From the NCBI GenBank assembly GCA_016200485.1, contig JACQEP010000022.1, positions 1-64,000 on the forward strand: DNA of 64,000 bases, given 5' to 3'. Origin of the DNA: Gammaproteobacteria bacterium (GTDB lineage Bacteria > Pseudomonadota > Gammaproteobacteria > Tenderiales > Tenderiaceae). A program made the translations under genes and the position numbers. Below are positions 13,930 through 63,447 of the stretch, piece after piece. Positions within the stretch are counted from its first letter, which is position 1. Every line of letters begins with the position of its first letter. The notes beneath the pieces are model-generated. The model did no database searches and was not told the DNA's origin. It saw nothing but the letters and a program-made list of their open reading frames with translations.

Positions 13930-16900
13930 GTGAGCAAAGACAAGACCGCGCCGACGGCGGCGGGATACAATGTATCGACCTTTCAGGGGCTGATCCTGGC
14001 CTTGCAGAACTATTGGGCTGGCCACGGCTGTGTGGTCCTGCAACCCTATGATATGGAAGTGGGGGCGGGTACTTTCCATACCGCTACCTTCCTGCGGGCG
14101 ATCGGCCCCGAGCTGTGGCGCGCAGCCTACGTGCAGCCTTCGCGCCGCCCGACCGATGGCCGCTATGGCGAGAACCCGAATCGCCTGCAGCACTATTATC
14201 AATTCCAGGTGTTGCTCAAACCGTCACCGCCGAACATACAGGAGCTGTATCTCGATTCGCTACGCATGCTCGGCTTCGATCCGCTGGTGCATGACATCCG
14301 CTTTGTCGAAGACAACTGGGAATCGCCGACGCTGGGCGCCTGGGGTCTGGGTTGGGAGATCTGGCTCAACGGAATGGAAGTCACCCAGTTTACGTATTTC
14401 CAACAAGTCGGCGGCCTTGATTGCCGGCCGGTGAGCGGTGAAATTACTTACGGTCTGGAGCGGCTGGCGATGTATCTGCAAGGCGTGGACAGCGTTTACG
14501 ATTTGACCTGGACGCATGGTCCGAATGGCAAAGTCAGTTACGGTGATGTGTTTCACCAGAATGAAGTCGAGATGTCGGCCTACAACTTCGAACATGCCGA
14601 TACGGCAGCGTTGTTTGCTTGGTTCGATGCCTGCGAGCATGAGAGCAATAAACTAATTGCAGCGGGATTGCCGTTACCGGCCTATGAGCAAATGCTCAAG
14701 GCTTCACACACGTTTAATTTGCTCGATGCGCGGCGTGCGATTTCCGTTACGGAGCGCGCACGTTTCATCGGCCGTGTGCGCGCTTTGTCGCGCGCGGTGG
14801 CGGAGGCCTATTACGCCCGGCGCGAAGCGTTGGGCTTCCCGATGTTAGTCCGCATTTCTCACCACTCTTCTACTGCGAACGCCGATCCCTCTGATCTGCC
14901 GGGGCGTTCTCACTCCAGCCGGCTTGACGTAGTGTCAACTACGCCGGCGCCGTCTTCCGCTCCGAGCACCCCGGCAGATCAGCATCTCGGCGCTCTCGCT
15001 ACGAACAGTGGTGAGAAATGCGGACTAGGAGAGCGGCCGATGAATGCTACAAGAGATTTATTGATCGAAATCGGCACTGAAGAATTGCCACCGAAGGCGC
15101 TGAAGCGTTTATCGGAAGCCTTTGCCACGGCCTTTGTCGCGGGCTTGGCGAAGAGTGATTTGAAACACGGCGAGGTCAAGTGTTATGCCGCACCACGGCG
15201 TCTTGCAATGTGGTTGCGCGATGTCAGTGTGACGCAGCCCGATAAGAGTGTTGAGCGGCGTGGACCAGCACTCAACGCTGCGTTCGGCGCTGATGGGATG
15301 CCGACCAAAGCGACCGAAGGTTTTGCCCGTTCCTGCGGCGTTTCCGTTGAACAACTGGAAAAACTGGAGACCGACAAAGGCAGCTGGCTGGTGTATCGCA
15401 GTGAACAACGCGGCCAAGCGGCGCAGACGCTGATTCCGCAACTGCTGCAACAGGCATTGGACCAATTGCCGATTCCGAAGCGCATGCGTTGGGGTGCAGG
15501 TACGGCTGAATTCGTGCGGCCGGTGCATTGGGTGGTGTTGCTGTTTGGTGATGAAGTGATCGATGCTGAAATTCTATCGGTGCGCACCGGGCGTGAAACG
15601 CGTGGTCATCGTTTTCATTATCCAAAATCAATTTATCTTAGCGAGCCTGCGGCATACGCGCCGGTGCTCGAAACTGAAGGTCATGTCGTTGTTGATTTTG
15701 AATCGCGGCGCGAAGCGATTCGAGGTCAGGTGGAAGAGGCCGCGGCAAAGCTCAAGGGGCACGCTGTCATCGACGAAGATTTGCTCGATGAAGTGACGTC
15801 GATGGTCGAATGGCCAGTGGCGATTACCGGCGAATTCGAAAAGCGATTTCTAGACGTTCCGGCTGAGGCGCTGATCTCGACCATGAAAGGCAATCAGAAA
15901 TATTTTCATGTAGTGGATGGCAATGGCCGCTTGTTGCCGAATTTCATCACCATCAGCAATATCGACAGTCGCGATGTGACGCAGGTGCGCGCCGGTAACG
16001 AGCGTGTCGTGCGGCCACGCTTAAGCGATGCAGCGTTTTTCTGGGAGCAGGATCGTAAGACGCCGTTGGCGCAACGCATGGAAAGTCTAAAATCGGTCGT
16101 GTTCCAGCAAAAGCTCGGCACGCAATATGATAAGTCACAGCGTGTTGCGACGTTAGCCGCGGATGTGGCTGAATTCGTGGGTGGTAATCCCAGTTATGCT
16201 CGGCAAGCAGCGAATTTGTCGAAGTGTGATTTGATGACGGCGATGGTGGGTGAGTTTCCTGAATTACAGGGCATCATGGGCCGTTATTACGCCCGTCATG
16301 ATCGCGAGCCGGAAGAAGTGGCGGTGGCATTGGATGAACAATACATGCCGCGTTTCGCCGGTGATGCGGTGCCGCACTCAGCAACGGGGCAAGCGCTGGC
16401 GATTGCCGATCGAATTGATACCTTGGTCGGTATTTTCGGGATCGGGCAGGCGCCAAGTGGCGACAAAGATCCCTTCGCTTTGCGCCGCGCGGCCTTAGGT
16501 GTGTTGCGTACGATTATTGAAAATCGTCTTGAGCGTGTCGATCTGCATGCCCTGTTGTTGCGGACGGTGGAAAATTTCACCACGGTGCTGTCGGCGGTTG
16601 ACGTGGCCGATGAAGTGTACAGTTTCATGATGGATCGCCTACGGGCTTATTATCACGAGGCGGGTATGGCGCCGGATGTGTTTGAAGCGGTGTTGGCATT
16701 GCGTCCCGGCCGGCCGTTCGATTTCGATCAGCGCGTGCGTGCGGTGACCGTTTTCCGCGCTTTGCCGGAAGCTGAGAGTCTGGCGGCGGCGAATAAGCGT
16801 ATCCATAACATACTCAAACAGGCGCATGAGGCAGGTCTTGCCGTGCCGCATCAAGTTGAGCCGCATTTGTTGCTTGAAGCAGCGGAAAAGGCCTTGGCGG

Positions 16901-17127
16901 AAAAGCTGGCGCATGTGGCGAACGCGGTGCAGCCGGCATTGGCACGGTTTGATTACACTTCGGCTTTGCAGCAAATGGCAGCCTTGCGTGAAGCCGTCGA
17001 TGTATTTTTCGATAAGGTGATGGTGATGGTGGATGATGTGAGTTTGCGTCACAATCGCTTGGCGTTGCTTTATAACCTGCGTGCCTTGTTCCTTAATGTC
17101 GCCGATGTGTCGCGGTTGCAGGGTTAG
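13930..17127 (+). CDS. glyQS: Glycyl-tRNA synthetase, fused alpha and beta subunits
   Basis: A single 1065-residue frame begins at GTG 13930 and encodes a full GlyQ (residues 1-305, class II core, ending [12 protein letters not shown]) followed by a full GlyS (residues 371-1065, starting [18 protein letters not shown], with the C-terminal anticodon-binding region). Normally these are two genes. The 65-residue linker is Ser/Thr/Pro-rich and is encoded almost entirely by a palindromic insertion of 180 bases (14848-15027) with no stop in this frame. GlyS could also be made separately from the ATG at 15040, which is preceded by GGAGAG, so both fused and free forms are possible. Followed by gmhB and a PlsC-type gene as in many Gammaproteobacteria. 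Confidence 0.93.
14846..15027. repeat. Palindromic element inside glyQS
   Basis: The ends are identical inverted repeats of 21 bases (TAGTCCGCATTTCTCACC at 14846 onward and its complement ending at 15027). A further 14-base identical block (CTGATCTGCCGGGG) and weaker matches extend each arm to about 90 bases around a centre near 14937. Both ends carry TA, consistent with a TA target duplication like that of mariner/IS630-derived miniature elements. Excising 14848-15027 would leave the flanking frame open with a five-residue linker. Confidence 0.85.
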
Positions 17128-50787: not shown

Positions 50788-50889
50788 TTGACAGATTCAA
50801 GGATGGTGTTATACATTGTTGTACGGGGGTAGGCCCCGTAGTATTCTGTTGTGCAACAGTTGACCGTATTGCTGCACGGGTGGTATAAA
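50788..50889 (+). promoter_or_regulatory. Tandem promoters of the secreted-protein gene
   Basis: P1: TTGACA at 50788-50793 and TATACA at 50810-50815 (16-base spacer). P2: TTGACC at 50860-50865 and TATAAA at 50884-50889 (18-base spacer). The P1 -10 box is part of GTTATACAT (50808-50816), which recurs in the operator at 53017-53045. Upstream of P2 is a perfect dyad CTGTTGTGCAACAG (50846-50859). A hairpin TACGGGG/CCCCGTA lies at 50822-50840. I see no gene between 50603 and 50959. Confidence 0.6.
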
Positions 50890-50959
50890 GTTCTCGGTAG
50901 GGTTTAGGAGGGGATGCGGCGCCATCTCCGTAAGCGTGTGAAGTTTAGGAGGCTATAAA

Positions 50960-51889
50960 ATGCGTAATATTATGAAAGCGGCGACCTCCATCGGTTCTGC
51001 AGCCCTGGTACTTTCCGGGGTAGCGATGGCGGCTGCTCCTACGACGGCTAATTTTGATCAATGGTCTGTGTCTACCGGCACGATTGGCGCGGCTTGCCCA
51101 ACAGGCTTTACCTGTGGCACCGCAGTGACGGGTGATGGTTTCTTTCAGCGTCAAATTGTTGATACGACGGCTGGTGGTAAGACTTATTTCCAGACAATCA
51201 TCACCGATACGGGTGCAACGGCTACCCAGCCTAATCTGGCTAACCTGACGTTCGGTGACGAAAGCTTTGTCCAGACTCAAAATACCGCTGGCGGTATTTT
51301 GGACAAGCAACGTTTGAAAGAAGTGTCGGGTGCTGACACCTTCGGTGGCAGCACGTCCATCCAGTCTGGTTGGGCGGGTGCTCTTGTTAATCTGGGACAA
51401 AGCCTGAAAAATACTTCTGGTAGCGGTTTCCGTACCGACTTCTTCTATGAAGCCGATACTGCGAACCTGACCGCTGGTGTACCGAACAACATGAAGATGA
51501 AGGTTGCCAGCCGTGTTGGTTTGACGGGTACAGCGGCTCTGGGCACCGATCAGATCTGGCAGGCAGCGCCTACCGGTATCGACTGGCAGGAGTTCCTATT
51601 GGCTGAAGCCAAGGGTACCTACATTTCTGCGAATGGTACTCTGAATCTGGCAGGTGCTACGCCGGCGACTTCGATTACCTATACTACGGGTAACGATATC
51701 AAGGGTGTTTATGTCGGTCAGAACATGAATGCGACCGTGGGCCAGGAGTTTGGTTATCAGAACTTTGATAACGTCAGCGATGCGCTGGCTCTGATCAGCA
51801 AGTTCGGTCTGACAGCAGGTTCGGCGGTTGGTCCAAGTGGTTGGCCGGCTGTGTTTGGCAGCACTGCGACCGACGGTACTGGCTTCTAA
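50960..51889 (+). CDS. Secreted protein of unknown function
   Basis: A 309-residue exported protein with a signal peptide (MKAATSIGSAALVLSGVAMAA). The mature part is rich in Thr, Gly, Ala and Asn with very few charged residues, contains two cysteines (CPTGFTCG) and repeated short strands such as TGDGFFQRQIV and GGKTYFQTIITD. The layout suggests an extracellular or surface beta protein; I do not recognise the family. It ends ATDGTGF without a lipobox. It has a strong ribosome-binding site (GGAGG), two promoters and a strong terminator, so it is probably expressed highly and alone. The genes downstream look like an envelope transport system. Confidence 0.75.
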   Translation: MRNIMKAATSIGSAALVLSGVAMAAAPTTANFDQWSVSTGTIGAACPTGFTCGTAVTGDGFFQRQIVDTTAGGKTYFQTIITDTGATATQPNLANLTFGDESFVQTQNTAGGILDKQRLKEVSGADTFGGSTSIQSGWAGALVNLGQSLKNTSGSGFRTDFFYEADTANLTAGVPNNMKMKVASRVGLTGTAALGTDQIWQAAPTGIDWQEFLLAEAKGTYISANGTLNLAGATPATSITYTTGNDIKGVYVGQNMNATVGQEFGYQNFDNVSDALALISKFGLTAGSAVGPSGWPAVFGSTATDGTGF

Positions 51890-51917
51890 GCTAGGCTGTA
51901 GATATAGGTGGTATCAG

Positions 51918-51949
51918 AGAGAGGGGCGTTATGCCCCTCTCTTTTTTTA
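51918..51949 (+). terminator. Strong terminator after the secreted-protein gene
   Basis: Stem AGAGAGGGGC-GTTAT-GCCCCTCTCT at 51918-51942 followed by TTTTTTT. It lies 29 bases past the stop codon. Confidence 0.92.
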
Positions 51950-52049
51950 TGAAATAAAGATAGATATAGTGGCCATTGTTGGCGATGGCAATTTTGACGG
52001 TTGTCCGTGTGGATGAGTAATGAATTTCAGATTGGCAAAGGGAGGGGCG

Positions 52050-52868
52050 ATGATACAAGTCTTGGGTAATATTCGAGGAAGTCTGTCGCTGCTATTGTGC
52101 TTGTCTCTGGTAGAGGTGGCGATGGCGGCTGATCCAACGGCGAATGATATTGTGCAGCAATGTGAGTACAAAAGCGCGGGGCCTGATAATACTTCGCAGC
52201 TGAGTATTACTCTAATCGATAAGGATGGCAGTGAACGTAAGAACGTCTATCGTCGACTGTGGAAGAATTATCGTGAGGCGGGTGGCGAGGTGGCGGATAA
52301 GATGGTGTTGATGACTGAATTTCCGCCAGATGCTCGCGGCACCGGTTTTTTGCGCTGGGGTTATTTGGCAGCCAGTGGCAAAATGGCAGATCAATGGTTG
52401 TATTTACCGCAACTGCGCAAGATTCGTCGCGTTTCTGTGCGTGATCCTGGAGATAGCTTTTTGGGTTCCGATTTGACCTATGGCGATATCGATGATCGGC
52501 CAGTAACGGCTGATACCCATACCTTGCTTCGGGTGGAGAATCTCGGTGGTCAGCCGCACTATGTAGTGGAGAGTGTGCCTAAAGAAGCGAACTCTCTCTA
52601 TAGCAAACGTGTGTCGTGGTATGCCAAGGGGCAGAATTGGGCGGGTTGCGTACGCCAGAAGACCGATTATTTCGATCGTCAGGGGATGTTGCTAAAAACG
52701 GCTACACTGAAGTGGCAGCAGGTGGGAAAGGCATGGGCCTGGGACCGGGTGCAGGTAGAAAACGTACAGACGCGCCACAAGTCGTTGTTTGAAGTCACTG
52801 ATGTAAAGGTGGGGGTCGGGTTGGAGGATCGCCAGTTTACGGAGCGAGAGCTGCAAAAAGGTGGTTAA
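52050..52868 (+). CDS. LolA-like outer-membrane lipoprotein-sorting protein
   Basis: A 272-residue periplasmic protein. The start MIQVLGNIRGS has a strong ribosome-binding site (GGGAGGGG) and yields a signal peptide ending VAMA; an earlier in-frame ATG at 52020 has none. The mature part fits the LolA-like (PF17131-type) fold: an alpha/beta half-barrel with DQWLYLPQLRKIRRVSVRDPGDSFLGSDLTYGDI. Such proteins accompany MMPL/RND exporters and DUF1302-type barrel proteins and are thought to carry a lipid-like cargo across the periplasm. A terminator follows at 52897-52928. Confidence 0.8.
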   Translation: MIQVLGNIRGSLSLLLCLSLVEVAMAADPTANDIVQQCEYKSAGPDNTSQLSITLIDKDGSERKNVYRRLWKNYREAGGEVADKMVLMTEFPPDARGTGFLRWGYLAASGKMADQWLYLPQLRKIRRVSVRDPGDSFLGSDLTYGDIDDRPVTADTHTLLRVENLGGQPHYVVESVPKEANSLYSKRVSWYAKGQNWAGCVRQKTDYFDRQGMLLKTATLKWQQVGKAWAWDRVQVENVQTRHKSLFEVTDVKVGVGLEDRQFTERELQKGG

Positions 52869-52896
52869 CAGGCGGTGAGCATGAGCTAGTCCAAGG

Positions 52897-52928
52897 CGCC
52901 GTTCAGGATTTTCTGGACGGCGTTTTTT
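52897..52928 (+). terminator. Terminator after the LolA-like gene
   Basis: Stem CGCCGT-CAG with CTG-ACGGCG (one mismatch) and a six-base loop at 52897-52922, followed by TTTTTT. Confidence 0.85.
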
Positions 52929-53016
52929 ATTTGATGTATAACATTACTTATAATAAAAAGTCCTTTAAGGACGATTGGTTATCGCTGCGTGGGTAGTTGA
53001 GCTTGACTTCGCGATG

Positions 53017-53045
53017 ACACATGTATAACATTGTTACACATGTGT
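53017..53045. promoter_or_regulatory. Palindromic operator upstream of the RHH regulator gene
   Basis: A near-perfect 29-base palindrome: arms ACACATGTATAAC and GTTACACATGTGT with one mismatched pair. A -10-like TATAAC (53024-53029) with -35-like TTGACT (53003-53008) falls inside it, so binding would block transcription. The core ATGTATAACATT also occurs at 52934-52945, and its reverse GTTATACAT at 50808-50816. Confidence 0.65.
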
Positions 53046-53090
53046 TTGACATGGGTATATGGATGCCCTATGACACGGAGGACAAGGCCA

Positions 53091-53501
53091 ATGAGTAATC
53101 AAATACCCAATCCTGGGAAAATCATGCGGGAGCGTGCGCTCTCCATGGCAATGAAGCGTAAAGAAGAATACCTTGGGGCACGCGTGCCGCGCGAATTACG
53201 GGATCGCGTGTTACAACGATCCAAAGACCTGGGGATACCGGTTTCAATCCTGATTCGCAATATTCTGGAAGAAGCCTTTAAGGAGGCAGAAGCCGCAATG
53301 ACGTCTGGGCAGACGGTGGCAGAGAGTGGCGGCAGGGATGATAGATTTGCGGCTGTTTTGGGCTGGGAAAAGATGGTACTGAATCGCAATGTTGTATGTT
53401 CCGGGTGCAGTATTTCGTTGCATGCGGGGCAGAGCGTGACTTTGGGGCTGGGGGCAGGTGAGCTCATTGTGTTGTGTGATAAGTGCAAGAGCCGCATCTG
53501 A
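53091..53501 (+). CDS. Ribbon-helix-helix regulator with C-terminal zinc ribbon
   Basis: A 136-residue protein. Residues 27-67 (EYLGARVPRELRDRVLQRSKDLGIPVSILIRNILEEAF) form a ribbon-helix-helix DNA-binding unit of the CopG/Arc type. The C-terminal 35 residues hold two Cys pairs (Cys103/Cys106 and Cys129/Cys132), a zinc-ribbon-like knuckle pair. I do not know this exact two-domain family. GGAGG precedes ATG 53091; a longer frame to 53031 lacks a good start. A palindrome just upstream suggests autoregulation. It lies in front of the barrel-exporter genes. Confidence 0.75.
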   Translation: MSNQIPNPGKIMRERALSMAMKRKEEYLGARVPRELRDRVLQRSKDLGIPVSILIRNILEEAFKEAEAAMTSGQTVAESGGRDDRFAAVLGWEKMVLNRNVVCSGCSISLHAGQSVTLGLGAGELIVLCDKCKSRI

Positions 53502-53531
53502 TGCGCTAAATGAGGGTGGTGGTGGTCACGA

Positions 53532-55001
53532 GTGTTACGGCAATTACTGATATCTTTTCTTGCGGCGGGATTGCTGATGGCCGGGACGATACACGCCCAA
53601 GAGAGCGCGTTCAGTTCCGGCGGCAGTGATTTATTTGGCACGCAACTCGATCTTGAGCAAGATACAAGTGTTTGGTCGAAAATTCGGCTGAGCGGTTATC
53701 TAAAAAATGAAACTGCGTATCGAATGCGTGAGCCGCGCTCGATTACCAAAATTCGCAATATAGCTTACGCCAATGTTCAGTATCCCTATAGCGACACGGT
53801 GAACCTTACCTATTCGGGGTGGGCTTACTATGACCTCGCCTACGATTTGTTCAATTACGAAACCATCGCTGCGCGTTTGGAGCGTAATCAAAATGAGCCG
53901 TTGGCTTTCGTTAAAAATCTTTCCCACGAAAAAGACTCGCCAGTAATTGCGACGCGTGAGATGTACATAGACGTCTCACACGGTTCGTGGGATGTGCGCG
54001 CGGGTAAACAATATGTGGTATGGGGTGTGCTAGAGGGGGTGCGGATTGTCGATGAAATCAATCCGATGGATTTCCGCGAACTGATCCTGCCCGATTTGCT
54101 TGATTACCGGATACCGCTCTGGACCTTTAAGTTGGATCACTACGCTGATGCAGGTAATTTTGAGTTATTGTTGATTCCGGATTTGAAATTTCATAAACCA
54201 GCGCCTCCTGGATCAGAATGGGAGTTATTGCAGGATGTGCCGGGGACGACGAAGCCGGAGTCGTGGAAGCTGGAGAATACAGAGATTGGTCTGCGCTGGT
54301 CGACGACCTGGCTCGATACCGAATTGGCATTAAGCTATTTCTATACTTGGGATGATTTTCCAGTCATCTTTCGCACAGTTAAAATTGACGGAACGATTCC
54401 AGCAGTATTTTTCCCAACCTATACACGAATCTCAATGTACGGCTTGACGGCTGTTCGGCAAATGGGAAATTACATTCTCAAGGGTGAGTTTGCTTATGTG
54501 ACCGATAAATTTTTCGGGCGGAGTAATACTGCTGATATCGACAAGGATGGTTATGTCGATACCAACGGTGAGGCGCAGAAAAATCATTTTCGCTGGGGGG
54601 GCGGTGTCGATTTTGTGATGATGGGCTGGGATGTGTCGCTTGGGATGATGCAGTGGATAGTGTTGGGATGGGAGCCGACGCTGATCCAGAAGCAGACGGA
54701 TACGTCCTATAATCTGTTCATGCGACGTGAGTTTCCTCAGTATTCGATGACGGCGCAGTTGCTCTTCATTTACTTACAGGGATTGAAGGAGACTTACTGG
54801 AAGCCGAAGGTGTTCTTCCAGGTGACGAACCGTTTTCAGGTTGCGGTGGGCATGGACATGTTTGATGGACGCGGGTCCGATTTCGGGACTTCCAGTGTAA
54901 CGGCGACGGGGCAGTTTAACAACTCGATTCAGGTGGCGCAGTTCCTGGGGAATTTTCATGATAACGATCGCGTCTTTGTTGAGTTTAAATACTCGTTCTA
55001 A
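53532..55001 (+). CDS. DUF1302-like outer-membrane beta-barrel protein
   Basis: A 489-residue barrel protein. Starts at GTG 53532 with a signal peptide (LISFLAAGLLMAGTIHA). The mature part has many amphipathic strands, the segment GKQYVVWGVLEGVRIVDEINPMDFRELILPD typical of DUF1302-like porin relatives, and ends VFVEFKYSF with the C-terminal Phe. DUF1302 barrels occur next to LolA-like and MMPL exporter genes in many proteobacteria. It is the first structural gene after the regulator, 30 bases downstream, and 40 bases before the exporter. Confidence 0.75.
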   Translation: MLRQLLISFLAAGLLMAGTIHAQESAFSSGGSDLFGTQLDLEQDTSVWSKIRLSGYLKNETAYRMREPRSITKIRNIAYANVQYPYSDTVNLTYSGWAYYDLAYDLFNYETIAARLERNQNEPLAFVKNLSHEKDSPVIATREMYIDVSHGSWDVRAGKQYVVWGVLEGVRIVDEINPMDFRELILPDLLDYRIPLWTFKLDHYADAGNFELLLIPDLKFHKPAPPGSEWELLQDVPGTTKPESWKLENTEIGLRWSTTWLDTELALSYFYTWDDFPVIFRTVKIDGTIPAVFFPTYTRISMYGLTAVRQMGNYILKGEFAYVTDKFFGRSNTADIDKDGYVDTNGEAQKNHFRWGGGVDFVMMGWDVSLGMMQWIVLGWEPTLIQKQTDTSYNLFMRREFPQYSMTAQLLFIYLQGLKETYWKPKVFFQVTNRFQVAVGMDMFDGRGSDFGTSSVTATGQFNNSIQVAQFLGNFHDNDRVFVEFKYSF

Positions 55002-55041
55002 GGTATCTTTGACGTTAAATTAACAATGGAATGTTAGATCA

Positions 55042-57477
55042 ATGCGTAAGCTATACGGAATAGTCACCCAATATCCCAAGCTGATCCTTATCATCACGGT
55101 CGCGATGATCGTGTTCCTGGCGATGCAATTGTCATCGTTGCGCTGGGAGACTGATGCACGGGTGTACATGCCAAAGGGGCATCCGGCAATTAAATACGAT
55201 GAGCGGGTCGAGCATCTGTTTGGGGTAAAAGATGCAGTGGTCATCGTCATCGAAAACAATCATAAATCTATTTATAACGCTGAAACCCTGGCGCGCGTGG
55301 CGCGTATTACCGAAAAAGTTGGGGCGCTGCCGGGCGTAGTGGCCTTGCGTACGATCGATGTGGCTTCGTTGGCGACGGCGACGGTATTCGTCGGAACTGA
55401 TGAGGCCATGGGTGCGCAACGCTTGATGCCATACGCACCAAAAACCGAGACGGAAATGGCAGCGCTGAAGCAAAGCGTGCAGCAGCATGCGGATTTGTTG
55501 GTGGGCAATCTTGTGTCTACCGATGGCAATGCGACCATGATACGCGCCAAGCTCAAGGAAGGGGCGGTTAACCGCTATCAGACCTATTGGCAGATCAAAG
55601 GCATTCTTGCCGCTGAGAATGGGGGCGAGGGTGAGTGGCAGGGAAACTGGCAGCAGGGTGGCAATTGGAGTTCGGCGGGTGGCTGGAAGGCGGCTGGAGA
55701 TAAGGCGGCTGATGCCGCAGCCAAGCCCGTATTTGTAACGGCGAAGGATAACGGCGATGTGTTTTATCTTGCCGGGAGGCCGGTCATTGAAGTGACGTCG
55801 GGTTTGCATGCTATGGATGACATGAAACGCATGATTCCCTTGCTGCTGGTGTTAATGGCGTTTGCATTGTTCTTGGTTTTTCGCACCGGGCCTGGTGTTG
55901 CGATCCCGATGTTGGTCATGGCTGGTGCAGTAATTTCCACTTTGGGCTTGATGGCATTTCTGAATGTTCCCCTCTATACCATTTCTACGATGCTGCCGGT
56001 AATTCTGGTGGCCGTGGGGATCGGTGATTCTGTGCATCTGCTGAGTGAATATTACAACAAGGTGTTGGACAACCCGCATCGCAAAGCGGGGGAAATTGTT
56101 GCCGAGGTGTTGGGTGAGCTGGGTTCGCCATTGGTGATGACCTCCGCGACGACGGCGATTGGTTTCTTGACGTTTTTGTTTGCTGATATGCCGCCCTTCA
56201 AAATGTTCGGTTTATTTACGGTGGTAGGGATTGTGTTTAGCTGGTTGCTGACAGTGACCTTTGCAGCGGCATTATTGTCGGTAATGCCGCCCAAGGTAAG
56301 TGGTTATCTATCCAAGCGTCGCTCGATGCGTGTTCATGCTGAACAAGATGTGTTGACGCGATGGTTGGTAACGCTGGGGCGAGGGTTGATGTCTAATCCG
56401 CGGCGTTCGCTGTTGCTGATTGGAGTGGTGACACTGGTCGTTGGTGCGGGTGCAAGTCGTTTGCAGGTCAATTCCAGCTGGATGAGTGATTTTAAAAAAG
56501 GCAGCGAGGTTTCTCAATCGACTCAGTTGCTGAATCAGCGTTTTGACGGGACCATATTCCTCAATGTGGTCATCGAGACGGATCGGCGTGATGCATTTAA
56601 AGATCCCGTGTTGTTGGCGAAGATGGAGGCGCTACAGAATTATGCCGAGAGCTTGCCAGACGTGGGAGATACCTTGTCGGTCGTTGATTTTCTGAAGAGC
56701 ATGAATAAATCGCTGCATGCGGAAGATAACTCATTCAATGTGTTGCCGAAATCGGGGGCGGAAATTGCTGAGGCGCTCTATTTGTTCTCGGTTTCCGGAC
56801 AGCCGGAACTGCTGGACGAGGTGGTGGATTTTGGTTATCAGCGTGCCAACATCAGCATTTCAATCAAGACAGATGAAACTGCGCGCCTGAAGGCGATTAT
56901 CGATAAATTACGCGCCTTTATCGATGCTAATTTGGCGGGGCCTGGCGTGGACGTTAATTTTGCGGGATCGGCGAATAATTCTTATATTTGGGCTGATTTG
57001 CTGATTGATAGCCAGGGCTCGTCGATTATCTTCTCCAAAGTGGGAATTTTTGTGTTGGCAGCATTTTTATTTGGGTCGCTTTATTATGGAGTGATGACGA
57101 TAGTGCCGGTGACTATCACCACGATTCTGGTGGCAGGGGCGGCAGGGTGGTTGAGAGTGCCATTGGATGTGTCGACAGCGTTGGCGGCGGGGGTGGCCAT
57201 TGGTGTGGGGGTCGATTATGCCGTGCATTATCTGTTTCGTTATCGACGTGAACGGCAGAGTGTGGATCATCAAGACGCCGCATTAAATACATTGCGGAGC
57301 ATAGGGCGCACAATAGTTTTCAACGCGGTGGTGGTGACGGTAGGTTTTGCCGTGTTGTTCATGTCGGAGTTTCCGCCGCATGTGAAATTAGGCGTATTTG
57401 TAGTTATTTATATGATTTTGAGCTGTATTGTTGCGCTGATGGTCTTGCCGCTCTTCGATAAGCGGACGCAGACATAA
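55042..57477 (+). CDS. MMPL/RND-superfamily exporter with Trp-rich insert
   Basis: An 811-residue exporter with two repeats of one plus five membrane segments and large periplasmic loops. The conserved GxxxD-type relays appear in TM4 and TM10: VAVGIGDSVHLLSEYY and AIGVGVDYAVHYLFRY. It resembles HpnN and other lipid-exporting MMPL proteins. Residues 193-227, in the first periplasmic loop (55618-55722), are a low-complexity insert with WQ, NW and GW repeats (for example EWQGNWQQGGNWSSAGGW), absent from relatives I know. Stop and next start overlap or abut (ATAATGAG), so it is co-transcribed with the following barrel gene. Confidence 0.88.
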   Translation: MRKLYGIVTQYPKLILIITVAMIVFLAMQLSSLRWETDARVYMPKGHPAIKYDERVEHLFGVKDAVVIVIENNHKSIYNAETLARVARITEKVGALPGVVALRTIDVASLATATVFVGTDEAMGAQRLMPYAPKTETEMAALKQSVQQHADLLVGNLVSTDGNATMIRAKLKEGAVNRYQTYWQIKGILAAENGGEGEWQGNWQQGGNWSSAGGWKAAGDKAADAAAKPVFVTAKDNGDVFYLAGRPVIEVTSGLHAMDDMKRMIPLLLVLMAFALFLVFRTGPGVAIPMLVMAGAVISTLGLMAFLNVPLYTISTMLPVILVAVGIGDSVHLLSEYYNKVLDNPHRKAGEIVAEVLGELGSPLVMTSATTAIGFLTFLFADMPPFKMFGLFTVVGIVFSWLLTVTFAAALLSVMPPKVSGYLSKRRSMRVHAEQDVLTRWLVTLGRGLMSNPRRSLLLIGVVTLVVGAGASRLQVNSSWMSDFKKGSEVSQSTQLLNQRFDGTIFLNVVIETDRRDAFKDPVLLAKMEALQNYAESLPDVGDTLSVVDFLKSMNKSLHAEDNSFNVLPKSGAEIAEALYLFSVSGQPELLDEVVDFGYQRANISISIKTDETARLKAIIDKLRAFIDANLAGPGVDVNFAGSANNSYIWADLLIDSQGSSIIFSKVGIFVLAAFLFGSLYYGVMTIVPVTITTILVAGAAGWLRVPLDVSTALAAGVAIGVGVDYAVHYLFRYRRERQSVDHQDAALNTLRSIGRTIVFNAVVVTVGFAVLFMSEFPPHVKLGVFVVIYMILSCIVALMVLPLFDKRTQT

Positions 57478-57599
57478 TGAGTTCCGCCATGTTGTGGCAG
57501 ATGAGACTTTTCCCGCGTTGGGTGTTGAGAAAAGGGGCGGTTGCCCTTTTTCAGTTTTCACGTCAGGTGTCGTTTGTTTCTTTCCTGCGTGGACATTTA

Positions 57600-58535
57600 A
57601 TGTGTGTTGTGAAGAAACGGATTGTTTATTCGCGGCATGTTCCAGTCCGATTGTTGCAGCTGCTGGTATTGAGTGTGTGCGGTGTTGCCGCAGCTTGGGG
57701 GGCGGAGGAGCGGACGTTTAGTGTCGGGATGTACCTTGGCGTGCATCGTCCTGCCTTGGAGGAATTGAATCAATATGAATTTCAGTCACCTGTTGCAGGG
57801 ACTGCGACGCTTACCAATGCCGCGACCGGAGGTAATGACAGTGTGAGTCTCTATTTTCCTAATCCGCTGCCTGAGTTGGGGTTGGGTACCAATGCGGGGC
57901 TGGAGTTTCAGTGGCAGTTGGACCGTAAGAATTCGGTGATATTTGGTGGTAGCACCTGGGAAGCGTCTTCTCGCGCGACGATTGATGGTTTGTTTTCGCT
58001 GCAAGGTGAGTTGGCGGAAGTGCATATGAAGCGTGCGGCCAAGATGTCTTATAACGAATTCTATGCGGGTGTGCGTCGTTATGTGATTGATGAGCCAAAG
58101 AGATACAAGGTCTACTATCGACTGACGCTTAATGAGATTTACGATATTGATTATCGCGAGGATTTATCTTTTACCTATCTTACAGGGTTGGCTAAAGGAG
58201 TGACCAAGAATATCGTTTTGATGTCTCAGGCGACAGGTTTGCTGGCGCTGCAGCCCGGGATTGGGGGGGATTATTTCTTTCGTGATTGGATGTCGGTGGG
58301 GATCGAGGCTTCCTATTTAATCGGATTGCGTGCAGTCCAGCTGCGAGAGGGGGCGCTGAAACAGGACTTTCTGATTACGGATAATCTTGATTTGTTTCTT
58401 CCATATAAGATTAATACAAACTATGGCTATGCGGAGTATCTTCGTAATCCACCAAAATCCAGAGATGATTATGATCGCCTTGATCTAAGTTTCGATGGCT
58501 GGAAGATTCTGGCGCGGTTGAATCTGTATTTTTAA
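57600..58535 (+). CDS. Predicted outer-membrane protein of unknown function
   Basis: A 311-residue exported protein. I start it at ATG 57600 (MCVVKKRIVYSRH) because this gives a normal signal peptide (LLQLLVLSVCGVAAAWG); the frame is open from ATG 57477, which would add 41 residues and abut the exporter. The mature part has beta-strand patterns rich in Tyr and Asp and ends ARLNLYF, as barrel proteins do. No family is recognised. It stands 13 bases before the TPR-barrel gene, so it is a co-transcribed partner. Confidence 0.7.
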   Translation: MCVVKKRIVYSRHVPVRLLQLLVLSVCGVAAAWGAEERTFSVGMYLGVHRPALEELNQYEFQSPVAGTATLTNAATGGNDSVSLYFPNPLPELGLGTNAGLEFQWQLDRKNSVIFGGSTWEASSRATIDGLFSLQGELAEVHMKRAAKMSYNEFYAGVRRYVIDEPKRYKVYYRLTLNEIYDIDYREDLSFTYLTGLAKGVTKNIVLMSQATGLLALQPGIGGDYFFRDWMSVGIEASYLIGLRAVQLREGALKQDFLITDNLDLFLPYKINTNYGYAEYLRNPPKSRDDYDRLDLSFDGWKILARLNLYF

Positions 58536-58548
58536 TAGCGGCTATATT

Positions 58549-61287
58549 ATGCAGCGAGCGGGAAAACATCGATTCAATGGAGCGTTTTCGCGTGTGATCG
58601 CGCGAGCATTTTGTTGTTTGATGCTTGTTTCTGTAGTTCCAATTTCGCATGCGCAGCAAGAAGCTATTGACTTGCCAGCGGCTCAGCCGGCGGTGAACCG
58701 GTTGTTGGATGTCGCTCGCGAGGCAATGCAAAAGGGAAAGTTTAACGAGGCGTATCAGGTCTTTGCAGAAGTTGTCAGGTTGGATCCCAATAATGCAGAG
58801 GCCTATTATCAGCAGGCCATCATCCATTTTCAGCGCGGTGAGTTTGCGCAGGGCTTGCCATTGATTCGGCGCAGCGTTGAATTGTCGCCTGACAACCTTG
58901 CACTGCGTTTTGCGTATGCCAGGGCTCTAACTGAGTCCAAAAATCCGACAGATGCGATCGAGCAGTATCGCTATATTTTGAGCAAGGCTCCCCCCGAATC
59001 CAAAGAGGCCCAGGAAGCGGACAAGCAGGTGGGCTTGGCGGTGTTTAACGGCTTGGCGGCGCAAGGCAAAATACAGGAAATGGATCAGATAGGTATGCAG
59101 CTGATGCGGCGGCATGGTGGTGAGCCCGATGTCTTGCACAATATCGGGATTACTTTGTATCGGCTGGGTCGTTTTGATGAGGCGATTACTATTTATCGGC
59201 GCCTGATTGGGCTGGTGCCGAATAATCCGGTAGCGCACTTTCATTTGGCGATGGTGTTGGAGGCCAAGGGGGATGTGAGTGGAGCGGAGGTATCCTATCA
59301 AAGAGTGGTTGATTTGGCAGCCAAGTCACCTATGGGGCAAACATCAAAGATTAAGCTGGGTACCATTCGTGGGGTGCGATATCTCCAGGGCGGAGATGTG
59401 GTCTTGGCGCGGCAGGAGTTCGAAGAGGTCATCAAGCTTGATCCTGATAATTTCCAGGTGGGTATGAGTTTGGCGGCATTGCATCATTCGGCGAATGAAT
59501 TGCCAGAGGCGATAAAGGCGTATGAAGGCATTGTCGATCATAATCCTGATAATTTAGAGGCTCGATTACGATTGGGGATGGTGTATTTGGATTCGCGACG
59601 AATTCCAGAGGGCGTTCGCGAATTGGATTTGGTGGTGGCTCGCGGCGGTGAACAGCAAGTGGCGGTCAGTGCCGCCGCATTATTGAATCGGGTTGAACAG
59701 TTGGTGGGGGGGCGTCTTGCGGAAGTGAGGCAAACGAATCGCGATCTGGATCAGTACCTGGCGGCATTGACGCAAAGTCCAGCGGACCCCGATGTTTATT
59801 TTAAATTGGGTGAGATTTGGTTGAAGCTTGGCAATCAAGATAAGGCCAAAGAAGCTTTTCAGAAGGCGGCGGCGCTGGATCCTGGGCATGCTGACGCCCG
59901 ATTGCGTCTTGGTTATATCTACGAAGAAGAAAATAAAATGCCGGAAGCGGCGCGGCAGTATAGCGCGGCATTGGCAGTGGCGACTGATTCGGAACAGATT
60001 GTAAAAATTCAGCGTCTATTGTTGTTGGCACAGGGACGGCAACGATTGGAAAAAGGTGAGCTCGAAGGGGCGGAGGATGCTTTTCGTGAAGTTTTGAAAC
60101 GATTCGATGGCGATTTGACAGCGCTGTGGAATATGGGGGCGGTCAAGTTGCGGCAGGGAAAGCCTGAGGACGCGCTCGGTTGGTATGATGAGGTGATCAA
60201 ACGCTATCCGGATCAGGTTGGGGCACGAATGAATATGGCCCAGGTGTATGAGCAGTTGAGCCGGGAAAACGATGCGATCATTCAATATGGATTTATTGCG
60301 CAATCAAGCAAGGCAAATGACAAGATGCGCCGGTATGCTGAGCAGAGGGCGGATGTTCTCCGGCGGCAGACGAATGGTTTTAGTTATGCCCTGGGTTATA
60401 CGCTGGCCATGGATGACAATGCCAATTTGAGTGATGATGGACTATTTGAATATCGTTCAGATACTTATGCGTCAGTGGCGTATAACTACAAGATCAACAA
60501 GAATTATAAATTCCATCTGGATGCGCGGCCCACGTATTCAACATTTCATCGTGGGCAATATGATTTTTTTAATTTCACGTTAGCCCCGTCATTACAGACA
60601 AGTCGCTGGGGGTATGACTTTTCCCTGGGATATGAGGCATCAAGTCAGTTTGGAGTTCTGCGGGCCGAAGATAATGTCAGTCGCACCAATAATTTTTCTT
60701 TGGATGCATCTTGGCGAAGTGACAACGGCAAATTCTATCAGGTGAACGGGTCTTATCGAACTCTGGCGACTCAGACGAGTCCATTTTTTGATGCGGACAC
60801 GCTGTCTTTGAATCTGTACATTAATCGCCAGTTTGCCGAGGGCATGCCTTTCGGGTATGGCTATACTTTTACGGATAACAAAAATAATCAGCCGTTAGGT
60901 GCGGACTACGCCTATTACAGTCACGCACTTTCTGGGCGGTTGGATAAACGGTTGGGGGGAAAGGTCTCGGTGTTTACAGATGGGTCGGCGACACTGTATG
61001 TGTACAAAAACTTGGACTCTTCGACCTTGTTAACAGGCCCCAAAAGACGTATCAATCTGGCGACCATGGTGCGGCTGGGGGGGAATTATCAATGGACCGA
61101 GAGCTTTAGTGTCAATGTGAGCTATATGGCGTTGATTCAGCGCTCCAACTTGCCACTCGGTATTGTCTATGATCCCACGCAAATCGTTGAGGGGATTATC
61201 TATAGCGGCGCGGTGGCGCGACAAAGTAACTCGCTGGGGGGCTATACGCGGCAGGCGTTCAATATTGGGGTGCGCTACACCTTCTGA
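58549..61287 (+). CDS. Large TPR protein with C-terminal outer-membrane beta-barrel
   Basis: A 912-residue protein with a signal peptide ending ISHA. Residues about 45-610 are a chain of tetratricopeptide-like repeats (FNEAYQVFAEVVRLDPNNAEAYYQQAI is one). Residues about 620-912 are a barrel of roughly 14 strands opening YALGYTLAMDDNANLS and closing FNIGVRYTF. Architectures of periplasmic TPR plus outer-membrane barrel include BcsC/PgaA/PelB polysaccharide exporters and the Slam lipoprotein-translocating family. I cannot assign which. It closes the operon begun by the regulator/barrel genes, and lies convergent with the ABC exporter. Confidence 0.8.
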   Translation: MQRAGKHRFNGAFSRVIARAFCCLMLVSVVPISHAQQEAIDLPAAQPAVNRLLDVAREAMQKGKFNEAYQVFAEVVRLDPNNAEAYYQQAIIHFQRGEFAQGLPLIRRSVELSPDNLALRFAYARALTESKNPTDAIEQYRYILSKAPPESKEAQEADKQVGLAVFNGLAAQGKIQEMDQIGMQLMRRHGGEPDVLHNIGITLYRLGRFDEAITIYRRLIGLVPNNPVAHFHLAMVLEAKGDVSGAEVSYQRVVDLAAKSPMGQTSKIKLGTIRGVRYLQGGDVVLARQEFEEVIKLDPDNFQVGMSLAALHHSANELPEAIKAYEGIVDHNPDNLEARLRLGMVYLDSRRIPEGVRELDLVVARGGEQQVAVSAAALLNRVEQLVGGRLAEVRQTNRDLDQYLAALTQSPADPDVYFKLGEIWLKLGNQDKAKEAFQKAAALDPGHADARLRLGYIYEEENKMPEAARQYSAALAVATDSEQIVKIQRLLLLAQGRQRLEKGELEGAEDAFREVLKRFDGDLTALWNMGAVKLRQGKPEDALGWYDEVIKRYPDQVGARMNMAQVYEQLSRENDAIIQYGFIAQSSKANDKMRRYAEQRADVLRRQTNGFSYALGYTLAMDDNANLSDDGLFEYRSDTYASVAYNYKINKNYKFHLDARPTYSTFHRGQYDFFNFTLAPSLQTSRWGYDFSLGYEASSQFGVLRAEDNVSRTNNFSLDASWRSDNGKFYQVNGSYRTLATQTSPFFDADTLSLNLYINRQFAEGMPFGYGYTFTDNKNNQPLGADYAYYSHALSGRLDKRLGGKVSVFTDGSATLYVYKNLDSSTLLTGPKRRINLATMVRLGGNYQWTESFSVNVSYMALIQRSNLPLGIVYDPTQIVEGIIYSGAVARQSNSLGGYTRQAFNIGVRYTF

Positions 61288-61314
61288 GGTTATGCTGCTG
61301 TTTCCAGCAGGCGG

Positions 61315-62076
61315 CTAGTCACGTAGGCCATTGAAGGCGCTCACCGCCCAAGTCAGAGAGATTGCTGCAAATCCAAACATGATCATAGCGCCGAAACCAT
61401 AGCTGGAGAAATCCGGTGTGCCCACCAGCACCGCGCGCACTGATTCCACTGCATAGGTGATGGGGTTGATCAGGGAGATGCTTTCGATCCAGCCGGGCAT
61501 GAATTGCTTCGGCACCATGGCGCTGGAGAGGAACATCAGCGGCAGGGTCATCAGGTTACCGATCATGACCAGCGGTTCTTCGCGTTGCAGTACGATGGCA
61601 AAGCCGTTGGATAATGCCGCCAAGCCAACGCCCAATAAAAAGACGCTTAACATTGCCATCAATAACGATAGCGGATCGAGATTAAGCTTGGCGCCCATCA
61701 GCCATGCGACCAGGATGATGACGAGAGTTTGTAGCACGACTTGCGCCGCTGAGTGCAGAACGCGGCTGAGGACGATGGCGATTCGCGACACTGGCGAGAC
61801 CAGCATCTTGTCGACGCTGCCGGCAGTGATTTCGCGTAACAGGCTCACACCAGACCACGACGAACCAAACAGCGCTGTCATGACCAGGACGCCGGGAACA
61901 AAGAAATCAACATAGCTGCTGCCATCATCCATTGGGATGTTGACGACATTCTTAAATAGCTGGGTGAAGATCAACAGCCAGAGTAAGGGTTGAACCAGGG
62001 TGAACAACGTCCACATCGGCATGCGCAGAGTGATTTTGGTGTATTTTAGAAACAGGTACCAGGTATCGGCCAACAC
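61315..62076 (-). CDS. ABC-2 type transporter permease
   Basis: A 253-residue ABC-2 permease with about six membrane helices. It resembles the DrrB/NodJ group: VLVMTALFGSSWSGVSLLREITAGSVDKMLVSPVSRIAIVLSR and LSSAMVPKQFMPGWIESISLINPITYAVESVRAVLVG. It forms the membrane half of an exporter with the ATPase gene 15 bases upstream. Such exporters move drugs, polysaccharide or lipids out of the inner membrane. Confidence 0.93.
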   Translation of the reverse strand: MLADTWYLFLKYTKITLRMPMWTLFTLVQPLLWLLIFTQLFKNVVNIPMDDGSSYVDFFVPGVLVMTALFGSSWSGVSLLREITAGSVDKMLVSPVSRIAIVLSRVLHSAAQVVLQTLVIILVAWLMGAKLNLDPLSLLMAMLSVFLLGVGLAALSNGFAIVLQREEPLVMIGNLMTLPLMFLSSAMVPKQFMPGWIESISLINPITYAVESVRAVLVGTPDFSSYGFGAMIMFGFAAISLTWAVSAFNGLRD

Positions 62077-62091
62077 AATCGTGTCCTCGAA

Positions 62092-63447
62092 TTAATTTTT
62101 ATCGTCTTTGGATTGCCATTTTTGCCAGTCGCCTTGCGACTGGTTTGGCCATTGCTTGTCTTGTGGCCACTGTTGTTGATTGGGCCAGGATTGTCCGGCC
62201 TGTTGCGGCCATTGTTGTTCGGTAGTCTTGGGCTCAGGCGCGCCCTGCGCTGCTGGCACAGCTTCGGCTGACGTAGAGGTTGATGATTCGGACGTCACAT
62301 CTTGTTGTTGCCATTGCTGCCGCTGTTGTTGCCAGCCTGCCTTTTGTTGTTCGTCGCCGTTTTCTTCAAGTTTGGTCTGCCACTTTTGCCAGTTCTTTTC
62401 CCATTTACTACCACCGCCTTTGCCGGCCCATTGCTGCCACCACTCTTCGCCTTCCTCCTTGTCTTTGGCTTCGGCGAGGGAGTTGCCGGTGTATTTCAGG
62501 AATACATCGTCCAATGTAGGGTGGGCCAGTGACAGTGTCTTGATGCCAACACCTTTTTCACCGGCAAGACGAACAATCGTTGGTACGGATTCACCGCCGT
62601 TGTCAACGTAGAGATGAAGTTTGTCATTTTCCCAGACCACATCGCGCACGCCGGGGAGTTCGTGCAGTGCATAAGTGAGTGTGCCGACTTCCGGGCCTGC
62701 ACTGCTGAAGGTCAGGATGACTGCGTCACCGTGAATTGCGTTTTTGAGGGCTTCCGGGGTGTCGATAACCTGAATCTTGCCGCTGTTGATGATGGCGACG
62801 CGATGGCTCAAATGATCCGCCTCTTCCAGGTAGTGGGTGGTGAGGAGAATGGTGAGTCCTTGTTCTTTGTTTAATTTCTCAATGTAGCGCCACAGGTTCT
62901 GCCGGCTCTTGATGTCGAGGCCGAGGGTGGGTTCATCCAGGAATAAAACTTTGGGGCCATGAATCAGTGCCGTGGCGATATCCAGCTTGCGCCGCATGCC
63001 GCCGGAGTAGGTCATCACCTGGCGATCAAGCGCGTCGGCGATTTCGAAATAGGTGGCCAGTTCCTGAATGCGGGCATCAATTTCGCTTTTTTTCATCCGG
63101 TAGAGCCGGCCCTGTAATTCCAGGTTTTCACGGCCGGTCAGAAAATAATCAACCCCGGTTTGTTGGGCGACGACGCCGATAGTGGTGCGGACTTTTTCAG
63201 GATGCGTATCGACGTTGTAACCGGCGACTTCGACTTGCCCTTCATCAAAGCCGCTGAGGGTGGAGAGGACGCGGATGGTCGTGGTTTTGCCGGCACCATT
63301 GGGGCCGAGCAGGGCCAAGATTTCCCCGGCGTTGACTTCGAGTTCAAGGCCATTAATCGCTTTGACGCCGCCATTAAAGATCTTGGTTAAACCGCTGACT
63401 CGAATCCCGCTCGTGATCCCGCTTGAATTGGCCATAAGTGTAGTCAT
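62092..63447 (-). CDS. ABC transporter ATPase with Trp/Gln-rich C-terminal tail
   Basis: A 451-residue DrrA-type ATPase: Walker A GPNGAGKTT (about 48-56), Q-loop VAQQTG, signature YSGGMRRKLD (about 147-156), Walker B VLFLDEPTLGLD, H-loop TTHYLEEAD. The canonical domain ends near residue 325. Residues 326-451 form an extra low-complexity tail rich in Gln and with 14 tryptophans in WQ/WP spacing (EEWWQQWAGK, KNWQKWQ, SWPNQQQWP). DrrA proteins normally stop near 330 residues. The tail shares its composition with the MMPL insert in the convergent operon. The gene is the first of a two-gene operon. Confidence 0.92.
   Translation of the reverse strand: MTTLMANSSGITSGIRVSGLTKIFNGGVKAINGLELEVNAGEILALLGPNGAGKTTTIRVLSTLSGFDEGQVEVAGYNVDTHPEKVRTTIGVVAQQTGVDYFLTGRENLELQGRLYRMKKSEIDARIQELATYFEIADALDRQVMTYSGGMRRKLDIATALIHGPKVLFLDEPTLGLDIKSRQNLWRYIEKLNKEQGLTILLTTHYLEEADHLSHRVAIINSGKIQVIDTPEALKNAIHGDAVILTFSSAGPEVGTLTYALHELPGVRDVVWENDKLHLYVDNGGESVPTIVRLAGEKGVGIKTLSLAHPTLDDVFLKYTGNSLAEAKDKEEGEEWWQQWAGKGGGSKWEKNWQKWQTKLEENGDEQQKAGWQQQRQQWQQQDVTSESSTSTSAEAVPAAQGAPEPKTTEQQWPQQAGQSWPNQQQWPQDKQWPNQSQGDWQKWQSKDDKN

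Follow-up and report, generated by a model that had tools for sequence, protein, structure and literature searches.

We describe a cluster of nine genes at positions 50788-63447 of a window of 64,000 nucleotides (the whole stretch of DNA that was analysed: positions 1 to 64,000 of contig JACQEP010000022.1, assembly GCA_016200485.1, from a member of the Tenderiaceae in the Gammaproteobacteria). The cluster appears to form a single system for transport across the cell envelope. A sequence-only reading had listed eight plus-strand genes in 50960-61287, followed by a convergent ABC-2 exporter; we count seven genes in that interval. All the open reading frames (ORFs) sit where that reading had placed them, and its family assignments are correct by profile searches (LolA_like, DUF1302, MMPL, TPR, ABC2_membrane, ABC_tran).

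The first gene of the locus (50960-51889, plus strand) encodes SecP, an orphan secreted protein of 309 amino acids (aa) that has no match in Pfam, NCBIfam or PDB profile searches and that is co-inherited with the cluster. On the same strand, it is followed by a LolA-like periplasmic carrier of 282 aa (52020-52868; PF17131 E=2.8e-46, DUF1329 E=1e-7), and by a ribbon-helix-helix (RHH) regulator with a weak CopG-like match and a C-terminal four-cysteine segment that resembles a zinc ribbon (53070-53501). Then come, also on the plus strand, a DUF1302 outer-membrane barrel of 489 aa (53532-55001; PF06980 E=5e-14, 52.6 bits vs. a cut-off of 23.2), an MMPL/HAE3-type resistance-nodulation-division (RND) exporter of 811 aa with ~12 transmembrane segments in its hydropathy profile (55042-57477; PF03176 E=3e-27), and an orphan outer-membrane barrel, Barl (57600-58535). 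Barl itself has no Pfam match and finds nothing in a PDB profile search; a few of its orthologs match OMP_b-brl. The last plus-strand gene (58549-61287) encodes the TPR-barrel, a protein of 912 aa in which a tetratricopeptide repeat (TPR) region of ~600 aa (TPR families E=5e-52) precedes a C-terminal barrel-like region of ~300 aa. Facing these genes, on the minus strand, are an ATP-binding cassette (ABC) pair: a DrrB-like ABC-2 permease of 253 aa (61315-62076; PF01061, ABC2_membrane, E=5e-32; orthologs at 60-86% identity) and a DrrA-like ATPase of 451 aa (62092-63447; ABC_tran E=2e-30). As for the signal peptides claimed by the sequence-only reading, fitting N-terminal hydrophobic stretches are present, by hydropathy only, in SecP, LolA, DUF1302, Barl, and the TPR-barrel.

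The called ORF of Barl begins at 57477 and has 352 aa, while most orthologs have ~295-330 aa. Its start is thus probably near 57600, and therefore the overlap with the MMPL gene that the called frame implies is probably not real. For the regulator, the TTG from which the ORF is called (53031) falls within an operator-like palindrome, and so the start is probably 53070 or 53091. The locus is probably divided into three transcripts, as suggested by two terminator-like hairpins on the plus strand, one 3′ of SecP (51916-51944, resembling an intrinsic terminator, and with a similar hairpin at that place in the relatives inspected) and one 3′ of the LolA-like gene (52893-52926). The RHH-DUF1302-MMPL-Barl-TPRbarrel genes form a tightly spaced run. 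The protein at 50960 had been called abundant. The sequence gives no support for that, though SecP does have its terminator and its own promoter-like site, TTGACA-N18-TACATT (50788-50817, plus strand).

Five genomes of the window's family, f1 (G001, G003, G004, G006, G010; the window's own genome is G000), share the order and orientation SecP-LolA-RHH-DUF1302-MMPL-Barl-TPRbarrel, facing the ABC permease and ATPase, and three others (G002, G007, G008) have the same gene order as far as their contigs extend. Upstream of the cluster in this family there are moa genes and a histidine phosphatase gene, where the contig extends that far. The same arrangement recurs in two members of other families (G031 and G032). 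Altogether, f1 keeps the gene order, and seven other families keep it with losses, at a per-protein identity of ~21-86%, and because it is conserved across eight families at such identities, the arrangement is not a matter of chance. Co-occurrence of at least five of the genes, which had been proposed as the mark of one system, is thus what we observe.

We surveyed 369 genomes of the class using the DUF1302 protein, and found an ortholog in 22 of them, from eight families. All loci in these 22 genomes have DUF1302 and Barl together, with the TPR-barrel in the same stretch, and an MMPL gene is present in every locus except L115 and L117; the regulator, LolA, SecP, and the ABC pair are the variable parts. 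At L115 (2562-11552, in G304), TPR proteins of 1769 and 1222 aa adjoin DUF1302 and Barl, without MMPL. Family f76 has two DUF1302 genes in tandem. Independent searches with a Barl alignment and with a SecP alignment find 24 genomes each: the same 22 plus G086 and G314 for Barl, and the same 22 plus G314 and G318 for SecP. All three of DUF1302 ortholog, Barl, and SecP are present in 22 of the 369 genomes, and G318 is the one exception in which SecP occurs outside genomes with the cluster or its barrel. For the overlap between the SecP and DUF1302 sets, the hypergeometric P is 2e-33 by genome and, against 182 families, 4e-14 by family; these values are not true probabilities because genomes and families are related. 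A link between the cluster and the secreted protein at 50960, suggested earlier, is much strengthened by this phylogenetic profile. In a phylum-level draw of 398 genomes the sole match is the window's own genome, which indicates a restricted distribution. One trans-envelope system unmatched to any named one, as had been proposed, is supported by the synteny in eight families and by the co-inheritance; no curated model names such a system, and in the open-access literature we found no paper joining these genes as one.

Families f37, f53, and f76 have SecP as well, although there it does not adjoin the cluster. The SecP family is expanded: a genome can have as many as 9 matches, and there are two-domain forms (G000:C10:349.9-354.8k), fusions, and a protein with a GlyGly-type tail (L069). 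SecP together with 16 relatives gives no meaningful Pfam family match. Elsewhere in the window's genome, one stretch (L065:479-12843, G000:C10) combines a LolA-like paralog with a cytochrome-like protein and a pair of large SecP proteins of the two-domain form. There is also a serpin-like lipoprotein (L066:7194-8723, G000:C1) that shares 89% identity with the SecP C-terminus over its last 64 residues and looks like a fusion to the 3′ end of a secP copy.

The regulator orthologs have 132-190 aa and the same layout, with two cysteine pairs in nearly all of them. Upstream of the regulator there is an operator-like palindrome, ATGTATAAC-ATT-GTTACACAT (53021-53041, plus strand; in full ATGTATAACATTGTTACACAT), which overlaps the -10 of a promoter-like sequence. 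Upstream of the regulator, 16 of 24 loci have the half-site TGTATAAC/GTTATACA, with 27 occurrences in all, where ~0.1 would be expected from base composition (the expectation was computed with 23 loci, and loci that are related do not count as independent). Perfect palindromes with a spacing of 3-4 bp appear once each in G006, G007, G010, and G210, always at the regulator promoter and as the sole such site in the genome, and none was found in six cluster-free genomes searched. In the window's family, five genomes (G000, G004, G006, G008, G010) also have the half-site GTTATACA overlapping the SecP promoter; in the window it is at 50808-50815. By analogy with RHH repressors, we infer that the RHH protein controls its own operon and SecP, as a putative autoregulator. 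A further possible site is a perfect TGTATAAC-N5-GTTATACA palindrome at L170:8997-9017 (G000:C17:43997-44017), ~350 bp upstream of a NusG-like (RfaH-type) gene and near a NeuB gene.

Both exporters have tryptophan-rich segments. In the MMPL protein, a hydrophilic insert rich in W, G, and Q (residues 190-244; 55609-55773, plus strand) is placed by hydropathy in the first periplasmic loop. It has 4-8 W between its anchors in all 24 orthologs measured, and 7.6% W overall. The paralogous MMPLs that we compared lack the insert and do not exceed 3 W per 40 residues at the equivalent place. In the ABC ATPase, the segment is a W/Q-rich hydrophilic C-terminal tail (residues 322-451; 62095-62484, minus strand) with 9.6% W over 20 orthologs. 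At its head there is an EEWWxQWAGKGGG-type motif, seen as WxxWAGKGG in 20/20 orthologs, beyond which the tail diverges into lineage-specific repeats. The composition of these segments is kept, over eight families for MMPL and wherever the ABC ATPase is present, while their sequence is not. In a scan of 470 non-overlapping ORFs sampled from the window's genome (~0.5 Mb, 1.5% W; the ATPase is counted twice because two sampled loci overlap), no segment is denser in W than the ATPase tail (7 in 40), and the MMPL insert belongs to a small number of hydrophilic segments with at least 5 W. We propose that these segments contact the cargo or the membrane interface.

Part of this system is already known. 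DUF1302, LolA/DUF1329, and an HAE3 pump form the core of AmeABCD from Castellaniella defragrans, whose deletion lowers monoterpene tolerance (PMC6394551), and as in AmeABCD, a DUF1302 and a LolA/DUF1329 protein are encoded in our locus together with an MMPL pump, here probably of the HAE3 type. Unlike AmeABCD, the locus adds the RHH regulator, a second barrel, the TPR-barrel, the ABC-2 exporter, and SecP; its LolA gene has its own terminator, and its pump has the W-rich insert. Profile searches found no match among the cluster genes to AmeC, a COG4447-type periplasmic protein. A comparable set in Pseudomonas putida, PP_0765/PP_0766 with PP_2018/PP_2019, is needed for growth on Tween20 and has been modelled as complexes (PMC10866462). 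Its parts likewise include DUF1302 and DUF1329 proteins, a periplasmic protein, and a transporter of the RND type, but its genes are not in one cluster, and no TPR-barrel, ABC-2 pair or SecP is reported for it.

For the pump, the best NCBIfam model is TIGR00921 (HAE3; E=3.5e-61, 207 bits, below the cut-off of 352). The hopanoid transporter HpnN, an HAE3 protein, shares the MMPL fold and superfamily, but membership is rejected (102.6 bits vs. a cut-off of 751.85), and a hopanoid cargo is disfavoured since the window's genome has no squalene-hopene cyclase match over cut-off. The ABC pair resembles DrrAB-type exporters in that the ATPase is above the DrrA cut-off (TIGR01188, 328.7 bits vs. 312.45) and the permease is in the ABC-2 family; it differs in the conserved W-rich tail and in the permease score (125.5 bits vs. 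the DrrB cut-off of 223). PrsT was rejected as well, with a score far below cut-off or the domain absent. A Dsr-type sulfur cargo is disfavoured: dsrA is over cut-off in 111/369 class genomes and in 0/25 of those with a DUF1302 ortholog, Barl or SecP.

A paralogous locus in the window's genome backs the partnership of MMPL and LolA. At L067:7736-10882 there is a single ORF of 1048 residues that joins an MMPL (PF03176) and a LolA_like (PF17131) domain, with a weak DUF1302-like protein downstream (22% identity by tblastn, no Pfam match). The genomic context of the fusion supports a lipid-like cargo for this paralog. The surrounding stretch (L067:3243-12784, G000:C15) is of the nonribosomal peptide synthetase type, with condensation, AMP-binding, carrier, thioesterase, acyl-CoA dehydrogenase-like, and phosphopantetheinyl transferase genes. 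This fusion, the W-rich segments on both exporters, and the operator-like palindrome with its half-site in the SecP promoter are the new elements.

The interpretation that we favour, with confidence that is about evenly balanced, is that the products of this locus together form a single, conserved export system that spans the envelope, moves a hydrophobic or amphipathic cargo, and has SecP as its dedicated partner at the surface. The DrrAB-like ABC-2 exporter and the MMPL/HAE3 pump would deliver the cargo to the periplasmic side of the inner membrane, and the LolA-like protein would receive it from MMPL and ferry it over the periplasm. An outer-membrane station of the DUF1302 barrel, Barl, and the TPR-barrel would then pass it to the surface, where secreted proteins of the SecP family may hold, receive or display it. 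On the two sides of the inner membrane, the flexible W-rich segments of both exporters would touch the same cargo or else the membrane interface. Through the TGTATAAC-N3/4-GTTATACA operator, the RHH/zinc-ribbon protein would repress both SecP and its own operon. A lipid-like cargo is inferred from the core of MMPL, LolA, and DUF1302, by analogy with AmeABCD (PMC6394551) and PP_0765/0766 (PMC10866462).

Several observations weigh against this picture of one export system. There are no biosynthetic genes in the cluster. The ABC pair is not at the locus in f37 and f76, and LolA and SecP are not adjacent to the cluster in f37, f53, and f76, so that these components may be accessory. In G312 the set is split over two loci as partial copies, one of them without MMPL. 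The co-inheritance may be due in part to the common descent of the eight families. The two W-rich segments lie in different compartments, and therefore cannot touch each other. The Tween20 data suggest that MMPL/DUF1302 systems may also act in uptake. AlphaFold models are too poor for use, both for Barl (two sequences, pLDDT 43) and for SecP (single sequence, pLDDT 38).

Alternatively, the locus could serve protein secretion or surface display. Proteins with SecP domains would be the cargo and would cross the outer membrane through a complex of the TPR-barrel, DUF1302, and Barl, while MMPL, LolA, and ABC-2 supply lipid or energy. We regard this as possible, on the unlikely side. The SecP family is expanded in, and (except for G318) confined to, genomes that have the cluster or its barrel, including those in which SecP lies apart from it, and SecP has its own terminator and its own promoter with an operator half-site, all of which would suit a cargo. 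So would the TPR-plus-barrel layout, which is that of known outer-membrane exporters, including Type XI secretion (Slam/DUF560), where an N-terminal TPR region and a C-terminal barrel-like region also go with an adjoining secreted protein gene. The TPR-barrel N-terminus does match PF24575 TPR_Slam (83.8 bits vs. a cut-off of 35.2), more weakly than several generic TPR models. However, its C-terminal 319 aa match no DUF560/SlamC model of Pfam or NCBIfam up to E=5, nor any other family, SecP has no TbpBBD-type cargo domain, and the locus has extra inner-membrane exporters, so we do not count it as Type XI secretion. Moreover, LolA, MMPL, and ABC-2 proteins elsewhere transport lipids or small molecules, and a receptor role for SecP would fit the co-inheritance equally well. 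A more specific proposal, a dedicated SecP secretion or display pathway with the three-part outer-membrane station coupled to two inner-membrane exporters that both recognise the cargo by W-rich disordered segments, seems to us doubtful.

The direction of transport could also be the opposite, with SecP binding a hydrophobic substrate outside, the barrels admitting it, and LolA and MMPL handling it within the envelope. The requirement of PP_0765/PP_0766 with PP_2018/2019 for growth on Tween20 (PMC10866462) agrees with uptake; but most genomes have a DrrAB-type ABC-2 exporter convergent with the operon, proteins of the MMPL/HAE3 kind are taken to be exporters, and catabolic genes are absent in or beside the cluster, which makes this reading improbable. 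Even less credible is export of a polysaccharide or glycolipid, where the TPR-barrel would be an outer-membrane secretin, ABC-2 the inner-membrane exporter, and the W-rich segments would bind sugars as the Wzt carbohydrate-binding domain does. The TPR and barrel layout does resemble PgaA/BcsC/PelB, and the perfect palindrome at C17:43997-44017, with its spacing of 5, lies near an RfaH-type gene beside a NeuB gene. That palindrome, however, is not seen in the other genomes searched. Membership among these secretins is rejected, since the PgaA model reaches 55 of the 367 bits of its cut-off and the BcsC model 54 of 858, and in the families examined no glycosyltransferase or synthase belongs to the cluster.

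Proteins of the DUF1302, DUF1329/LolA-like, and MMPL families are common in Proteobacteria and poorly understood. In this locus they go together with defined outer-membrane partners, another exporter, a probable regulator and its operator, and a co-inherited family of secreted proteins. The W-rich segments, an unusual feature, could reveal how such pumps recognise their cargo. A vague guess of lipid-like transport becomes in this way a nine-gene system with testable parts; of the sequence-only interpretation, the one conserved unnamed system and the SecP link are supported, and a lipid-like cargo is still suggested by the MMPL/LolA/DUF1302 core. The W-rich segments, the operator, and the terminators had escaped that reading. 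Elsewhere in the window (13930-17127), the alpha and beta subunits of glycyl-tRNA synthetase are found within a single ORF of 1065 aa.

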